A stretch of 6,628 nt of DNA from Acidimicrobiaceae bacterium (GTDB lineage: Bacteria > Actinomycetota > Acidimicrobiia > Acidimicrobiales > RAAP-2): the NCBI GenBank assembly GCA_030838245.1, contig JAUTXB010000140.1:1-6628 (forward strand). The letters are read 5' to 3'. Below, piece by piece: positions 3,302-6,628 of the stretch. Positions within the stretch are counted from its first letter, which is position 1; the number at the start of each line of letters is the position of its first letter. A model generated the notes under the pieces. It searched no databases. It was not told the origin of the DNA and saw only the letters and a list, made by a program, of their open reading frames with translations. A program made the translations under genes and the position numbers.

Positions 3302-3328
3302 TTGGCACTCCACTCTACCGAGTGCTGA
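3302..3328 (-). promoter_or_regulatory. CIRCE operator (HrcA binding site) upstream of hrcA
   Basis: TTGGCACTC (3302-3310), a 9-nt spacer and GAGTGCTGA (3320-3328) match the known CIRCE consensus TTAGCACTC-N9-GAGTGCTAA. Each arm differs from it at one position, and the inner GCACTC/GAGTGC halves pair perfectly. The spacing is exact, and the site lies 80 nt before the hrcA start, where autorepression is expected. On the transcribed strand the spacer contains TAGAGT (3312-3317), which fits an actinobacterial -10 hexamer (TAnnnT). No convincing -35 is visible, so the promoter assignment is tentative; the operator itself is not. Confidence 0.92.
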
Positions 3329-3459: not shown

Positions 3460-4119
3460 TCAAGCGGAGGCGATGAAGAGCTGTTTGGTCATCGCCGGCC
3501 CTACCGCCACGGTGGCGTCGCCCACGACCAGCGTCAATGTTCCGTCGGGGGCCTTGGCCTGGATGGTGGCGGTGGTCCCCGGGGTCAGCCCATGATCGCC
3601 CAGGTAGGTCAGTGAGGCCGAGTCGTGCTCGACACTCTCGGTGATCCTCAGGAGTTTGATGTTCTCACCCGGCTCTGCCTTGGCCAGGGATCGCTGCTCG
3701 CTCCGTGTGCCGGCTGAGCCCGGGATGGGGTTCCCGTGCGGGCAGGTGGTGGGATTCTCGAGCAGGACGATCAAGCGCTTCTCGACGTCATCAGAGATGA
3801 CGTGCTCCCACCGGCCGGCCTCGAGGTGCGCCTTGTCCCAGTCGAGACCGATGATGTCGACCAAGAGGCGCTCGGCCAGGCGATGCTTGCGGACCACGCC
3901 CTCGGCCAGGGCGGCGCCAGCCGGCGTAAGCGCGATCTGCCGGCTGGTCCGAGTGATGAGATCGTCTGCTTCCAGGCGATCGAGCATCTCCGACACCGAG
4001 GGTGCCGCTTTGTCGAGGCGTTCGGCAAGGCGGGCCTGGATGACGGGCACGCCCTCTTCCAGTAGGGAGAAGATCGCCTCCAGGTACTCCTCAACCGGGG
4101 GATGGAAACGGTCGAGCAC
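3460..4119 (-). CDS. DtxR/IdeR/MntR-family metal-dependent transcriptional regulator
   Basis: DtxR-family proteins bind a divalent metal (Fe2+ or Mn2+), dimerise and repress uptake genes or activate storage genes. From GTG at 4119 the product has 219 residues, normal for the family. A winged helix (about 5-72) includes ARLAERLDKAAPSVSEMLDRLE (29-50, recognition region). The dimerisation and metal domain follows (about 73-135), with KHRLAERLLVDIIGLDW and the PTTCPHGNPIPGS block. The C-terminal SH3/FeoA-like domain (about 145-219) contains TYLGDHGLTPG. By comparison with DtxR, ancillary-site ligands His79, Glu83 and His98 and primary ligands Glu105 and His106 are present. The positions of DtxR Met10 and Cys102 are Glu11 and Gly102, so metal choice cannot be assumed. 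This start is chosen because it opens just before the conserved PPVEEYLEAIF and has AGGA eight bases upstream; longer frames run antisense through the divergent small gene. Its targets are unknown. Confidence 0.92.
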   Translation of the reverse strand: MLDRFHPPVEEYLEAIFSLLEEGVPVIQARLAERLDKAAPSVSEMLDRLEADDLITRTSRQIALTPAGAALAEGVVRKHRLAERLLVDIIGLDWDKAHLEAGRWEHVISDDVEKRLIVLLENPTTCPHGNPIPGSAGTRSEQRSLAKAEPGENIKLLRITESVEHDSASLTYLGDHGLTPGTTATIQAKAPDGTLTLVVGDATVAVGPAMTKQLFIASA

Positions 4120-4127
4120 AGAAATGA

Positions 4128-4131
4128 TCCT
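4128..4131 (-). promoter_or_regulatory. Ribosome binding site fixing the DtxR-family start
   Basis: On the minus strand AGGA stands eight bases before GTG at 4119 and supports that short start over longer upstream frames. The same bases sit inside TAGGAT, which would also fit a -10 hexamer exactly seven bases before the GTG, so a leaderless transcript is an alternative reading. Confidence 0.55.
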
Positions 4132-4212
4132 AATGGGGCGGCGACGTGATGCTCCGCACGCCTCGGCCAGGGAAGCCACCCGCCGGCCGATCTGGACACA
4201 TACAGCACTACC

Positions 4213-4614
4213 GTGGGTTTCGTGGACGAGGACCGAGAGCTGGACAGCGGCACGGTCGACGAGCACAGTGGGGACGATCCGACCCCGGTTGTCGAACCGA
4301 GCGGCGAGGGGTCGATCGAAGTGCCCGAGGACTCCCTGCGCTTCGATCGCTGGCGGCGGCGATCGGCCGCTGGGGCGATGATGACGGGGATCGCCTTCGG
4401 GCTGCAAGAGGCACTCGAGCGGAAGCGCAAGGAGGTTCCCATCGTGCAACAAGCCGACGGCGACCCACCGGGCCCACCGGGCCCCATCGAGCTGCAGTTC
4501 GACCCCGACCATCCCGAAAAGACGGTGGCGGTGATCAGGCCCTGGCTCATCGAGGCTCACGGGCCGAATGCCGAGGATGGGGATGCCACGGCCCCTACAG
4601 AGACGGCGGACTGA
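4213..4614 (+). CDS. Small acidic hypothetical protein, divergent from the DtxR-family gene
   Basis: I do not recognise a named family for this 133-residue product. It is probably real: codons are strongly GC-biased at third positions and the protein has a sensible layout. An acidic, low-complexity N-terminus (about 1-40) leads to a basic stretch, FDRWRRRSAAGAMM (44-57), and a short helical, partly hydrophobic segment, TGIAFGLQEALE (58-69), too short and mixed for a clear transmembrane helix. A proline-rich linker with a 9-nt tandem repeat (PPGPPGP, 85-91) precedes IELQFDPDHPEKTVAVIRPWL (92-112) and an acidic tail. It resembles small conserved hypotheticals I associate with actinobacteria, but that is memory rather than a search. 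It begins 93 bp from the DtxR-family start on the opposite strand, so the two may share a control region. GTG at 4213 has no clear ribosome site; GTG at 4222 is an alternative, three codons shorter. Confidence 0.72.
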   Translation: MGFVDEDRELDSGTVDEHSGDDPTPVVEPSGEGSIEVPEDSLRFDRWRRRSAAGAMMTGIAFGLQEALERKRKEVPIVQQADGDPPGPPGPIELQFDPDHPEKTVAVIRPWLIEAHGPNAEDGDATAPTETAD

Positions 4615-4862
4615 GAACTTTTCAGCTGGACATGACGCTGTACCTGCGCCGCGCAACTGCACCCCGCTGGTGAGAACGTGCGCTGAACGGAACGCAATTC
4701 GGTGAGGTGCCGCGCCCGCTACGCCGCTCACTGGTGTCCGAGCAGTAGGTGGGGCCCGGCAGTCCCGTCGCTAGCCGTAGATGGGCGGCGTAACGCGCTA
4801 TTCACAACCAGGATACCGGAAGGAAACAACGGCAACCTACGGTAAACACCGAAAACTAAATC
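4615..4862. other. Intergenic region before the riboswitch, no gene supported
   Basis: I see no convincing reading frame, tRNA or clear terminator between the small hypothetical gene and the riboswitch aptamer. Base composition turns AT-richer from about 4800, as expected for a promoter zone. The promoter of the riboswitch transcript should lie near 4800-4860. TACGGT (4838-4843) fits a loose TAnnnT -10, but no -35 supports it. An 8-nt inverted repeat, TACGCCGC (4720-4727) with GCGGCGTA (4785-4792), could close a 57-nt loop. Confidence 0.5.
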
Positions 4863-4962
4863 GCATCTAGGGTTCCGCATCCGATCACGGGATGGTCTGG
4901 TCCGAGAGGTGCACAGGCCCACTCCGGTGGGCTTGACACGGAGGGATAAAAGCCCGGGAGGT
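4861..4962 (+). promoter_or_regulatory. Guanidine-I riboswitch (ykkC class, subtype 1) aptamer
   Basis: The segment carries the three conserved ykkC blocks in order: CTAGGGTTCCG (4867-4877), GGTCTGGTCCGAGAG (4894-4908) and ACACGG...GGGATAAAAGCCCGGGAGG (4936-4961). The expected helices can be drawn. P1a pairs 4863-4868 with 4907-4912 (one G-U pair); its inner extension is 4878-4882 with 4890-4894. P2 is a perfect 6-bp stem, GCCCAC/GTGGGC, with a TCCG loop (4917-4932). P3 pairs GGG (4943-4945) with CCC (4953-4955). Subtype 1 RNAs of this class bind guanidinium and usually turn genes on. The ppGpp- and PRPP-sensing subtypes share the core, but the intact P3 block and the creatininase downstream favour guanidine. 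The aptamer's 3' part is also the 5' arm of the following terminator, and the regulated gene starts at 5002. The distal ORF start at 4909 falls inside this RNA and is not a real start. Confidence 0.9.
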
Positions 4963-4991
4963 TACGACCTTCTGGGCTTTTGCCCATTTTT
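4948..4991 (+). terminator. Riboswitch expression platform: intrinsic terminator before the ligase gene
   Basis: Positions 4948-4962 pair with 4967-4981 in a 15-bp stem (outer AAAAGCCC/GGGCTTTT perfect, two G-U pairs inside) closed by a TACG tetraloop. T-rich sequence follows: TTTT ends the stem and TTTTT lies at 4987-4991. The 5' arm is the same sequence as the aptamer's P3 3' side, so aptamer and terminator exclude each other. Ligand binding should therefore prevent termination, giving an ON switch, as known for most guanidine-I riboswitches. A small alternative hairpin, TGGGC-TTTT-GCCCA (4973-4986), could form when the long stem does not. Confidence 0.8.
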
Positions 4992-4997
4992 AGGAGA
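4992..4997 (+). promoter_or_regulatory. Ribosome binding site deciding the glutamine synthetase-family start
   Basis: AGGAGA lies just after the terminator's T-run and four bases before GTG at 5002. It is the strongest Shine-Dalgarno in the window and fixes the start there rather than at the upstream in-frame ATG at 4909. Confidence 0.88.
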
Positions 4998-5001
4998 CTA
5001 C

Positions 5002-6396
5002 GTGGACACAATCAAGCAGGTCGAGGAGCAACACGAGGAGCTGGCGAAGACCCTCGCCGGCCAGGGCGTCGAGTACGTCTTTGCCTCGTTCGTCGATGTC
5101 ACCGGCCGGGCCAAGTCCAAGTGCGTGCCCATCCAGCATCTTCCCGCCCTCTTCGCCGGCCATGAGCGTTATACGCCACGGGGAATGGGCAATCTCGGAC
5201 AGATGACCCCTGACGAGGACGAATGCGTCACCGTGCCCGACAGAGACACACTGTGCATTCTCCCGTGGGACACGCGGTTTGCCCATATGACCGCAGATCT
5301 CTATTACGGGGGGACCGAGCCCTTCGCTCTCTGCACCCGCTCCGTACTGAAGCGGGCAGAGGAGCGGGCCACGTCGGCGGGGTATCGCATGCAGTTGGGT
5401 ATCGAGACGGAGCTGTTCGTCACTCGTTCGTTCGCCGATCACCCCGGACCGGACGGCTACCTTCAGCCGTCTGCCCCATCGGGACGGCTCCGTCCGACGC
5501 CGGCCTATGACGTGGAGTCGACCCTCGACATGATGCCGTACCTGGACGAGATGGTGCGGGCGATGGACGCGTGCGGATTCGGTGTCTTCAGCTTCGACCA
5601 CGAGGGAGGCGACGGACAGGTCGAGTTCGACTTCGACTACGCGCCGGCCCTGGTGATGGCCGACCGGATCACGCTGTTTCGGCTGATGGCCAAGCAGATC
5701 GCCAAGCAGGTAGGGCTCGAGGCCACGTTCATGCCGAAGCCCTATACCGACGGATGGGGCTCGGGTGCCCACTTCAACATGAGCCTGGTCGACGGTGCGG
5801 GCGAGAACCTCTTTCGGGATGCCGACGACGCCAGGGGTCGGGGGTGGAGCAAGGAGGCCTACGGGTTCGTGGCCGGCATCCTGCGCCACGCCCCGGCGTT
5901 GGCCGCAATCTGCACACCGACGGTCAACTCGTACAAGCGACTGCAACCGCGACTGGCCGACGGGACGGTGTCTTGGGCCCCGACCTGGGCCGCGTACGGC
6001 GACAACAACCGCTCTTGCATGCTCCGGCTCCCACGCAACCGGCCGGCCGTCGAGAACCGGGGCGTGGACTCCGCGGCCAATCCCTATCTCGCCGCCGCCT
6101 TTCTCCTGGCTGCCGGGCTCGAGGGGGTGGAGCAAGGGCTCGACCCGGGAGAACCAGTCGAGGACCTTACCTATGACTGGGCCACCGCTGGGCCCTCGGG
6201 CGGGGACCTGACGGCGACACGACTGCCGAGAACCCTGCTCGAGGCCATTGAGGCCTTCGATGCCGATCCGCTCGCCCGTGAGGTCTTCCCCGCTCAGTTC
6301 GTGTCGACGTACGTGGACATGAAGGTCAACGAGTGGGAGACCTACCACGCGCAGGTGACCGACTGGGAGCGCACGACCTACCTCCACATGTTCTAG
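5002..6396 (+). CDS. glnT: Glutamine synthetase-family ligase, type III (GlnT / gamma-glutamylmethylamide synthetase-like)
   Basis: Members couple ATP hydrolysis to joining the gamma-carboxyl of glutamate to ammonia or, in relatives such as gamma-glutamylmethylamide synthetase, to an amine. The 464-residue product has the N-terminal beta-grasp domain (about 20-105, with SFVDVTGRAKSKCVP) and the catalytic domain (about 110-440). Visible active-site motifs are Glu135-x-Glu137 in GIETELF, His200-Glu201 and Glu208 in FDHEGGDGQVEFDF, MPKP (244-247), GSGAHFNMS (253-261, His257), NSYKR (309-313), NNRSCMLRLP (335-344) and ENR...ANPYLAA (351-365). The type I ammonium loop DGSS is absent; YTPRGMGN (57-64) stands there. 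The adenylylation tyrosine motif is also missing. These traits fit type III enzymes. The start is set by AGGAGA four bases upstream. The gene sits directly behind a guanidine-I riboswitch and 112 nt before a creatininase-family gene, so guanidine probably induces it. Family confidence is high; the acceptor substrate is unknown. Confidence 0.93.
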   Translation: MDTIKQVEEQHEELAKTLAGQGVEYVFASFVDVTGRAKSKCVPIQHLPALFAGHERYTPRGMGNLGQMTPDEDECVTVPDRDTLCILPWDTRFAHMTADLYYGGTEPFALCTRSVLKRAEERATSAGYRMQLGIETELFVTRSFADHPGPDGYLQPSAPSGRLRPTPAYDVESTLDMMPYLDEMVRAMDACGFGVFSFDHEGGDGQVEFDFDYAPALVMADRITLFRLMAKQIAKQVGLEATFMPKPYTDGWGSGAHFNMSLVDGAGENLFRDADDARGRGWSKEAYGFVAGILRHAPALAAICTPTVNSYKRLQPRLADGTVSWAPTWAAYGDNNRSCMLRLPRNRPAVENRGVDSAANPYLAAAFLLAAGLEGVEQGLDPGEPVEDLTYDWATAGPSGGDLTATRLPRTLLEAIEAFDADPLAREVFPAQFVSTYVDMKVNEWETYHAQVTDWERTTYLHMF

Positions 6397-6508: not shown

Positions 6509-6628
6509 GTGCCCACCGTGCGTTGGGCAGACTTGTCCTCACCCGAAGTGGGCGATCGAACCGGCAGGAACGGCCACGAGGTCGGCCTTCTGCCCGTCGG
6601 CGCCACCGAGCAGCACGGCCCCCACTTG
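6509..6628 (+). CDS. Creatininase (creatinine amidohydrolase) family protein, 5' part only
   Basis: The frame starts with GTG at 6509, preceded by GAGGG at a six-base gap and by an in-frame TGA at 6497, and stays open to the window edge after 40 residues. The family signature LLPVGATEQHGPHL (27-40) is unmistakable. Glu34 and His36 occupy the metal-ligand positions known in Pseudomonas creatininase (Glu34, His36), and RWADLSSPEV (5-14) matches the usual opening helix. Family members are metal-dependent amidohydrolases: creatininase opens creatinine to creatine, other members act on formamides in riboflavin/deazaflavin synthesis, and MftE trims the mycofactocin precursor. Position behind a guanidine riboswitch and a glutamine synthetase-like ligase suggests a role with guanidino or cyclic amide compounds. 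Substrate cannot be told from the fragment, and the remaining metal ligands lie outside the window. Confidence 0.88.
   Translation, partial: MPTVRWADLSSPEVGDRTGRNGHEVGLLPVGATEQHGPHL

Follow-up and report, generated by a model that had tools for sequence, protein, structure and literature searches.

The window, by which we mean the whole 6,628-nucleotide stretch of Acidimicrobiaceae DNA analyzed here, carries a predicted guanidine-I (ykkC subtype 1) riboswitch with an overlapping intrinsic terminator, followed by genes for a glutamine synthetase-like protein (P0002), probably a gamma-glutamyl amine ligase, and for a creatininase-family hydrolase (Table 1). From these features we infer a riboswitch that binds guanidinium and acts as an ON switch, inducing a catabolic operon whose substrate would be guanidine or a guanidino compound, and we regard this reading as probable. 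The aptamer itself is ordinary, and the controlled genes are the interesting part.

Table 1. Features of the riboswitch-operon region of the window.
Feature	Position	Strand	Basis
Predicted guanidine-I (ykkC subtype 1) riboswitch aptamer, P1/P2/P3	4856–4962	+	RF00442, 91.8 bits; marker nucleotides
Intrinsic terminator hairpin, 16 pairs, then CCCATTTTT	4947–4982	+	Folding; recovered in six-sequence consensus fold
Shine-Dalgarno-like AGGAG, 5 bases before GTG 5002	4992–4996	+	Read from sequence
Glutamine-synthetase-like protein P0002, probably gamma-glutamyl amine ligase, GoaS/GmaS-like, 464 aa	5002–6396	+	PF00120, PDB matches, residues
Creatininase-family hydrolase, N-terminal 40 aa, cut by window end	6509–6628	+	PF02633; EQHGPHL motif

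The guanidine-I covariance model (RF00442, Rfam) matched over its full length (model positions 1 to 107 of 107), with a score well over the gathering score of 63 and an E-value of 3.1e-16 in the 6,628-base window. This significant match agrees within 5 bases with the initial annotation, which had placed a guanidine-I riboswitch at 4861 to 4962, and the three conserved ykkC blocks described there were all found in the sequence (CTAGGGTTCCG at 4867, GGTCCGAGAG, and CACGGAGGGATAAAAGCCC). A permissive Rfam search of positions 4700 to 5100 returned five other matches, each far under its own cut-off, and the next-best family by E-value reached 22.6 bits against a cut-off of 45. No rival subtype 2 model scored at the aptamer, and Rfam 15 may contain none; the subtype 1 call rests on the marker nucleotide and the gene context. 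In the available text of PMC6031431, guanidine-I RNAs have an adenosine, A46, where the ppGpp and PRPP subtypes (2a/2b) have a pyrimidine, and sorting ykkC RNAs on this position alone splits guanidine contexts from the rest. Both candidate A46-equivalent positions in CCGAGAG of the window are A, whichever column is the exact one. Each of the 16 aptamers inspected that contain the exact core motif, the one in the window among them, has the subtype 1 A marker; in one of these, at locus L082, the CCGAGAG stretch reads CCAAGAG. Because the subtype-defining adenosine is present, the RNA is assigned by sequence to subtype 1 and not to the ppGpp/PRPP subtypes; it belongs to a known family, shows nothing unusual within it, and is predicted to bind guanidinium. 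The preference for guanidine-I over subtype 2 in the initial annotation was thus supported by the score, by the marker, and by the gene context in relatives. The fold energy of the aptamer alone did not stand out (z = -0.88, with 30 of 200 shuffles reaching it) and was left unused as evidence. Among the six operon-linked aptamers described below, 8 of 37 predicted pairs were changed on both sides and still pair (two in P1, five in P2, and one in the terminator), a count drawn from few and partly close sequences.

The terminator hairpin is a strong structure (-24.4 kcal/mol, z = -5.5, a value reached by none of 200 shuffles). It takes up the 3' arm of P3 (GCCC, 4952 to 4955), and it replaces P3 in the consensus fold of the six operon-linked aptamers. 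Since the terminator uses this arm, it competes with the ligand-bound aptamer, and the expression platform is consistent with a transcriptional ON switch. No sigma-70-like promoter was found in positions 4600 to 5060. The longest frame (4909 to 6396, 495 aa) starts inside the aptamer, as had been noted initially, but the accompanying expectation that a gene caller would bury the RNA did not hold here: the database copy of the window protein begins at GTG 5002, behind the AGGAG, and close homologues align from residue 1 of this start. Burial of the aptamer in an open reading frame was therefore rejected.

Upstream, on the opposite strand, a DtxR-type metal repressor with a FeoA domain is encoded (3460 to 4731, minus strand; PF02742, 100 bits; NCBIfam DtxR, 177, under the cut-off of 290), and a link to the riboswitch operon was not evident. 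The window also contained an operator of the CIRCE type, TTGGCACTC-N9-GAGTGCTGA, at 3302 to 3328 (plus strand; degenerate pattern fitted with 0 mismatches, 0 expected), upstream of an hrcA-dnaJ-rsmE cluster that runs on the minus strand from 3221 down to 207. We take this operator to be CIRCE, a known kind of heat-shock control.

A ligase at least 60% identical to P0002 was encoded at 14 loci (the window, L001 to L010, L090, L091, and L096), 12 of which have upstream sequence. The aptamer heads the operon in 6 of these 12, namely the window, L001 (71.6 bits with RF00442), L002 (73.3), L003 (86.2), L090 (69.1), and L096 (82.0). Among these 12, it was found at the operon head in all five loci with a ligase identity of at least 72%, and in L003 (64%), where the creatininase-family gene comes first and the ligase second, it still stands in front. 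L001 and L002 appear closely related, which makes the number of independent events less than six; in both, the T run after the hairpin is weak, and termination is therefore less certain. L001 is titled Acidobacteriota and L002 Actinomycetes, with nearly identical riboswitches and second aptamer loci (L062 and L063), and one of the two MAG labels may be wrong. No aptamer was found before the ligase operon in the other six loci with upstream sequence (L005 to L009 and L091), so the link between aptamer and operon is not universal. Genomes G007, G008, and G389 contain an aptamer elsewhere, and G005, G006, and G009 gave no RF00442 match over the search threshold. The 12- and 14-locus counts do not include the loci with ligases at 48–57% identity (L073 to L075, L092, and L097); L073 to L075 and L092 gave no RF00442 match at the gathering score, nor did the corresponding genomes G241, G302, G423, and G700. 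In a control set of 49 loci with ligases at 32–35% identity (L011 to L059), partner genes reaching 45% identity and the core motif were both absent from the fetched stretches, the motif search being for the exact 11-base core rather than with the covariance model. A wider sampling for relatives yielded few: 3 of 296 genomes at the phylum level (1e-120), and 6 of 395 at the class level and 5 of 248 at the order level (both at 1e-150), with several genomes recurring.

P0002 matched the catalytic domain of glutamine synthetase (PF00120, 315 bits) and scored 444 bits with the type III glutamine synthetase model TIGR03105, under its cut-off of 469.6. The best sequence matches in the PDB were a glutamate-methylamine ligase (9qur, 293 bits) and then 7cql (256 bits), and chains named glutamine synthetase gave 213 bits or less. 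The entry 7cql, named type III glutamate-ammonia ligase in the PDB, is taken by us to be the structure of GmaS from Rhodovulum, because its alignment agrees with the residue numbering of PMC7948447. By that alignment, the P0002 equivalents of GmaS W300, D177, E186, and R312 are W325, D199, E208, and R337, and the Asp50' position, Ala48 in GmaS, is R60. D210 stands at GmaS N188 in the amine pocket and Ser197 at GmaS Q175. As described in the portion of PMC7948447 available, GmaS has Trp300 in place of the Glu-flap glutamate and Ala48 in place of Asp50', with catalysis by Asp177, Glu186, and Arg312, and loss of the Asp50' and Glu-flap residues has been tied to loss of ammonia use (PMC7948447, PMC11335346, available portions).

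For these residues, P0002 was aligned with 119 of the 120 best homologues (out of 4,702 at 1e-100; the database copy of P0002 itself was omitted), 120 sequences in all. W325, R60, D199, and R337 were each found in 120 of 120, and E208 in 119 with one gap. Both hallmarks of glutamine synthetase, Asp50' and the Glu-flap glutamate, are thus absent from P0002 and these close homologues, and the features of the GmaS/GoaS group (PF00120, the equivalents of D177/E186/R312, and no Glu flap) are present. Loss of both ammonia-handling residues with retention of the GmaS catalytic residues argues that P0002 is very probably a gamma-glutamyl ligase of amines rather than of ammonia. It departs from GmaS in having Arg at the ammonia site and Asp210, and the invariant R60 may indicate an acceptor with an anionic group. 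One database protein, P0112 (744 aa), is a natural fusion of the ligase with a creatininase-family protein.

The creatininase-family fragment at the window end scored 31.7 bits with PF02633, for which the cut-off is 31.3. A homologue lies directly beside the ligase in 12 of the 14 loci, the window included; in the remaining two (L004 and L010), a contig end falls within the ligase or immediately before it. The full-length copy of L090 scored 134.4 bits with the creatininase model TIGR04448 (cut-off 235) and 134.5 bits with MftE (cut-off 172), and gave 83 bits to the solved creatininase. The homologues retain the EQHGPHLP...TD motif as well as the histidine of NxH. The position of creatininase E122, presumably a metal ligand, is Gly in nine and Asn in one of the ten sequences reaching it, out of 12 aligned, as the window and L001 copies are cut short before this position. 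Measured in the relatives, the window copy being cut, neither a score over the TIGR04448 cut-off nor E122 was found, and by sequence the protein is a member of the creatininase family and not creatininase proper.

Downstream sequence was present in 12 loci (L002 to L010, L090, L091, and L096), in which the genes behind the ligase encode a C26 hydrolase (8 loci), a short-chain dehydrogenase/reductase-type SDR protein (9), and a peptide/nickel-type solute-binding protein (9). In the C26 hydrolase, the motifs GICRG and WHPE, which we take to hold the catalytic triad residues, were kept in 8 of 8 aligned homologues. Within the fetched stretches of the 14 ligase loci, a Rieske oxygenase was found in five (upstream in L005, L006, L009, and L091; downstream in L090), a guanidinase in two (L004 and L090), and urease alpha in one. 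The order in L090 is aptamer, ligase, creatininase-family gene, C26 hydrolase, SDR, importer, Rieske oxygenase, arginase-family enzyme, metallo-beta-lactamase-fold protein, and urease alpha, the last (977 bits, cut-off 907) being truncated where the fetched sequence stops. The arginase-family enzyme gave 661 bits to 9FEK, 568 to 7ESR/7OI1, and 176 to the next arginase-family sequence; 9FEK is the Nitrospira guanidinase and 7OI1 the Synechocystis enzyme according to the available text of PMC11410670, and by these matches the L090 enzyme is a GdmH-type guanidinase. That of L004, about 8 kb behind the ligase, is 83% identical to it. For the importer binding protein, NikA was the best NCBIfam model (135.6, cut-off 393), and dipeptide-binding proteins were the best solved structures (107 bits). 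Because this protein is ambiguous between peptide and nickel types, the importer may bring nickel instead of the substrate, in which case it may supply the guanidinase and urease.

RF00442 matches over the cut-off occurred in 8 of the 17 genomes searched (5 of 10 and 3 of 7). In L084 and L085, the aptamer precedes an arginase-family gene and Rieske, metallo-beta-lactamase-fold, and GdmH genes; in L087, it precedes GdmH; and in L088 and L089, it precedes importer genes and then a gene for an isochorismatase-family hydrolase, although the L089 aptamer (L071) scored 59 bits, below the RF00442 cut-off. UAAP/DUF1989 genes, with UAAP taken by us to be carboxyguanidine deiminase, lie behind aptamers in three genomes with a ligase cluster: G003 (L082), G007 (L086), and G389 (L101). 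In L101, the UAAP gene stands beside a urea/guanidine-carboxylase-type enzyme scoring over the urea carboxylase cut-off. In L083, the aptamer is followed by an unassigned gene and a 2OG-Fe(II) oxygenase (PF14226/PF03171). Most of these aptamer-led genes belong to guanidine biochemistry that is already known, and this favors guanidine as the ligand of the group.

Three further observations concern these loci. In genome G008 (L083 from 8742 on; L070 from 1512 on, the latter read by eye), the gene between the aptamer and the 2OG-Fe(II) oxygenase gene is small and gave no Pfam or NCBIfam match; the riboswitch-controlled oxygenase is worth attention because some 2OG oxygenases make guanidine (PMC11018352, available text). 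A second arginase-family enzyme, URH1, is 36–40% identical to GdmH and is encoded between the aptamer and the Rieske/GdmH genes in L084 (12302 to 13333, minus strand) and L085 (7136 to 8248, minus strand), and behind the importer genes in L089 (8401 to 9468, plus strand). The isochorismatase-family hydrolase is encoded behind guanidine-I-controlled importer genes in L088 (8589 to 9227) and L089 (9487 to 10230), and also inside the ligase cluster of L005 (12835 to 13413); its best NCBIfam model was biuret amidohydrolase (70.7 for the L089 copy, cut-off 370).

In the proposed mechanism, the leader would fold the terminator (4947 to 4982) when guanidinium is absent, and transcription would stop; guanidinium, when present, would hold the P3 arm in the aptamer and block the terminator, so that the downstream operon is made. 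The operon core would be the gamma-glutamyl amine ligase and the creatininase-family hydrolase, joined in relatives by the C26 hydrolase, the SDR, and the peptide/nickel-type ABC importer, in some by the Rieske oxygenase, and in L090 by guanidinase and urease. As to the chemistry, one possible course, which we rate as doubtful, is that a substituted guanidine or amine is imported and capped with gamma-glutamate by the ligase, the capped compound is oxidized by the Rieske enzyme, and uncapping then releases free guanidine, the riboswitch ligand, which guanidinase and then urease would convert to ammonia. The aptamer, terminator, gene content, conserved gene order, and active-site residues were established directly. 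Guanidinium binding, induction, the substrate, and the reaction order are deduced from these, and the ligase, C26 hydrolase, and Rieske enzyme would presumably work as in the aniline and 1-naphthylamine clusters.

Glutamate synthases (PMC5912903) and glutamate biosynthesis (PMC7266159) are named among subtype 2a targets in the available portions of these sources, as would suit a ykkC subtype 2 riboswitch (ppGpp, PRPP, or NDP) governing nitrogen metabolism. Nevertheless, the A at both candidate positions of CCGAGAG, where subtypes 2a/2b have a pyrimidine (PMC6031431, available text), and the guanidine genes beside the aptamers of relatives make this explanation hardly credible, and on these two grounds subtype 2 was rejected. 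Ordinary nitrogen assimilation, in which a glutamine synthetase is induced to mop up ammonia from guanidine, would agree with the 444 bits of the TIGR03105 type III model and with the source name glutamine synthetase of many among the best 120 of 4,702 homologues. We consider it highly improbable, as the TIGR03105 score lies under the cut-off and all 120 aligned close homologues (best of 4,702) have Trp in place of the Glu flap and Arg in place of Asp50'; a true glutamine synthetase was rejected on residues R60 and W325. Many proteins of this clade that are named glutamine synthetase (seen among the best 120 of 4,702 matches) are probably something else.

An explanation that keeps the amine ligase is that it and its partners dispose of an amine, such as methylamine, freed by arginase-family cleavage of an alkylguanidine to urea and amine. 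Methylamine ligases are the closest solved relatives of P0002 by sequence (9qur, and 7cql by the inference from residue numbering), and URH1 lies with Rieske and GdmH behind the aptamer in L084 and L085. However, the sequence fetched around the 14 ligases contained no URH1 gene, the 38% matches in L004 and L090 being the GdmH gene, and R60 in place of GmaS Ala48 in 120 of 120 aligned sequences (best of 4,702) means that the amine site differs; this explanation appears unlikely. Somewhat less likely still is a third route of guanidine breakdown, in which the ligase would make gamma-glutamylguanidine, the creatininase-family or another hydrolase would deiminate it, and the C26 hydrolase would free urea and glutamate. 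Creatinine is an acylguanidine, hence a creatininase-family enzyme could act on gamma-glutamylguanidine; D210 in place of GmaS N188 in the amine pocket could favor a cation; and the C26 motifs are conserved throughout the eight aligned homologues. Guanidine is what this riboswitch class senses, and in six loci the first gene behind the aptamer is that of the ligase or of the creatininase-family protein. Against this route, a guanidinase, which needs no activation step, is encoded in the same operon in L090, the Rieske enzyme of five loci would have no role in it, and guanidinium is a poor nucleophile.

The preferred reading remains a guanidine-induced catabolic operon. A wider reading, which we put forward tentatively and with slightly less than even confidence, is an undescribed guanidine-riboswitch regulon of Actinomycetota that would combine gamma-glutamylation by a GoaS-type ligase with Arg at the ammonia site, a creatininase-family hydrolase, and in some loci a Rieske oxygenase to turn a guanidino compound or guanidine into guanidine or urea. 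If true, this route would be distinct from the guanidine carboxylase pathway, would feed or parallel direct guanidinase, and would possibly be a biological source of the guanidine sensed by riboswitches. Riboswitch contexts led the field to guanidine carboxylation, and the natural origin of guanidine was left open, in the available text of PMC12186494. That a glutamate-capping ligase is found under a guanidine sensor, and in L090 together with an oxygenase, guanidinase, and urease, suggests that guanidine may be a breakdown product of the substrate, and the operon may be the sign of a little-known mode of growth on guanidine compounds. No description of a ligase-creatininase operon under a guanidine riboswitch was found in the open-access literature searched, and a 2017 gene-context survey may list it; a guanidine/ykkC riboswitch together with creatininase was likewise not found in that literature.

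The window RNA resembles known RF00442 guanidine-I riboswitches in its full-length match, conserved blocks, A marker, overlapping terminator, and ON logic. No difference was evident in the aptamer, whereas the controlled genes of the window are unlike those in the portions of the literature consulted. A guanidine-I aptamer occurs with gdmH (sll1077) and an ABC importer in Synechocystis and marine Synechococcus, and in the latter a Rieske gene lies downstream in the guanidinase operon (PMC12186494, PMC10119275, available portions). L090 likewise combines aptamer, GdmH guanidinase, and ABC importer, but the gamma-glutamyl ligase and creatininase-family gene lead, a C26 hydrolase and an SDR are present, the importer is of the peptide/nickel type and not TauABC-like, and urease alpha follows. 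Operons for guanidine carboxylase, CgdAB, and allophanate hydrolase are also guanidine-I controlled; their enzymes differ, and none of these was identified among the L090 operon genes. Between the ligase and Rieske genes of the atdA/npaA clusters lies a presumed GATase-like gene, a further shared feature. In these clusters for aniline (atdA) and 1-naphthylamine (npaA), the amine is not oxidized directly, the oxygenase taking its glutamylated form, and a glutamine synthetase-like ligase without Asp50' and the Glu flap is encoded with a Rieske dioxygenase in one cluster, as in the loci described here (PMC11335346, available text). They differ in their aromatic amine substrates, and the same available text describes no guanidine riboswitch, creatininase, guanidinase, or urease in them. 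Finally, compared with GmaS (9qur, and presumably 7cql), P0002 differs in Arg60, Asp210, Ser197, and its linkage to a creatininase-family gene, but shares the equivalents of D177, E186, R312, and W300.
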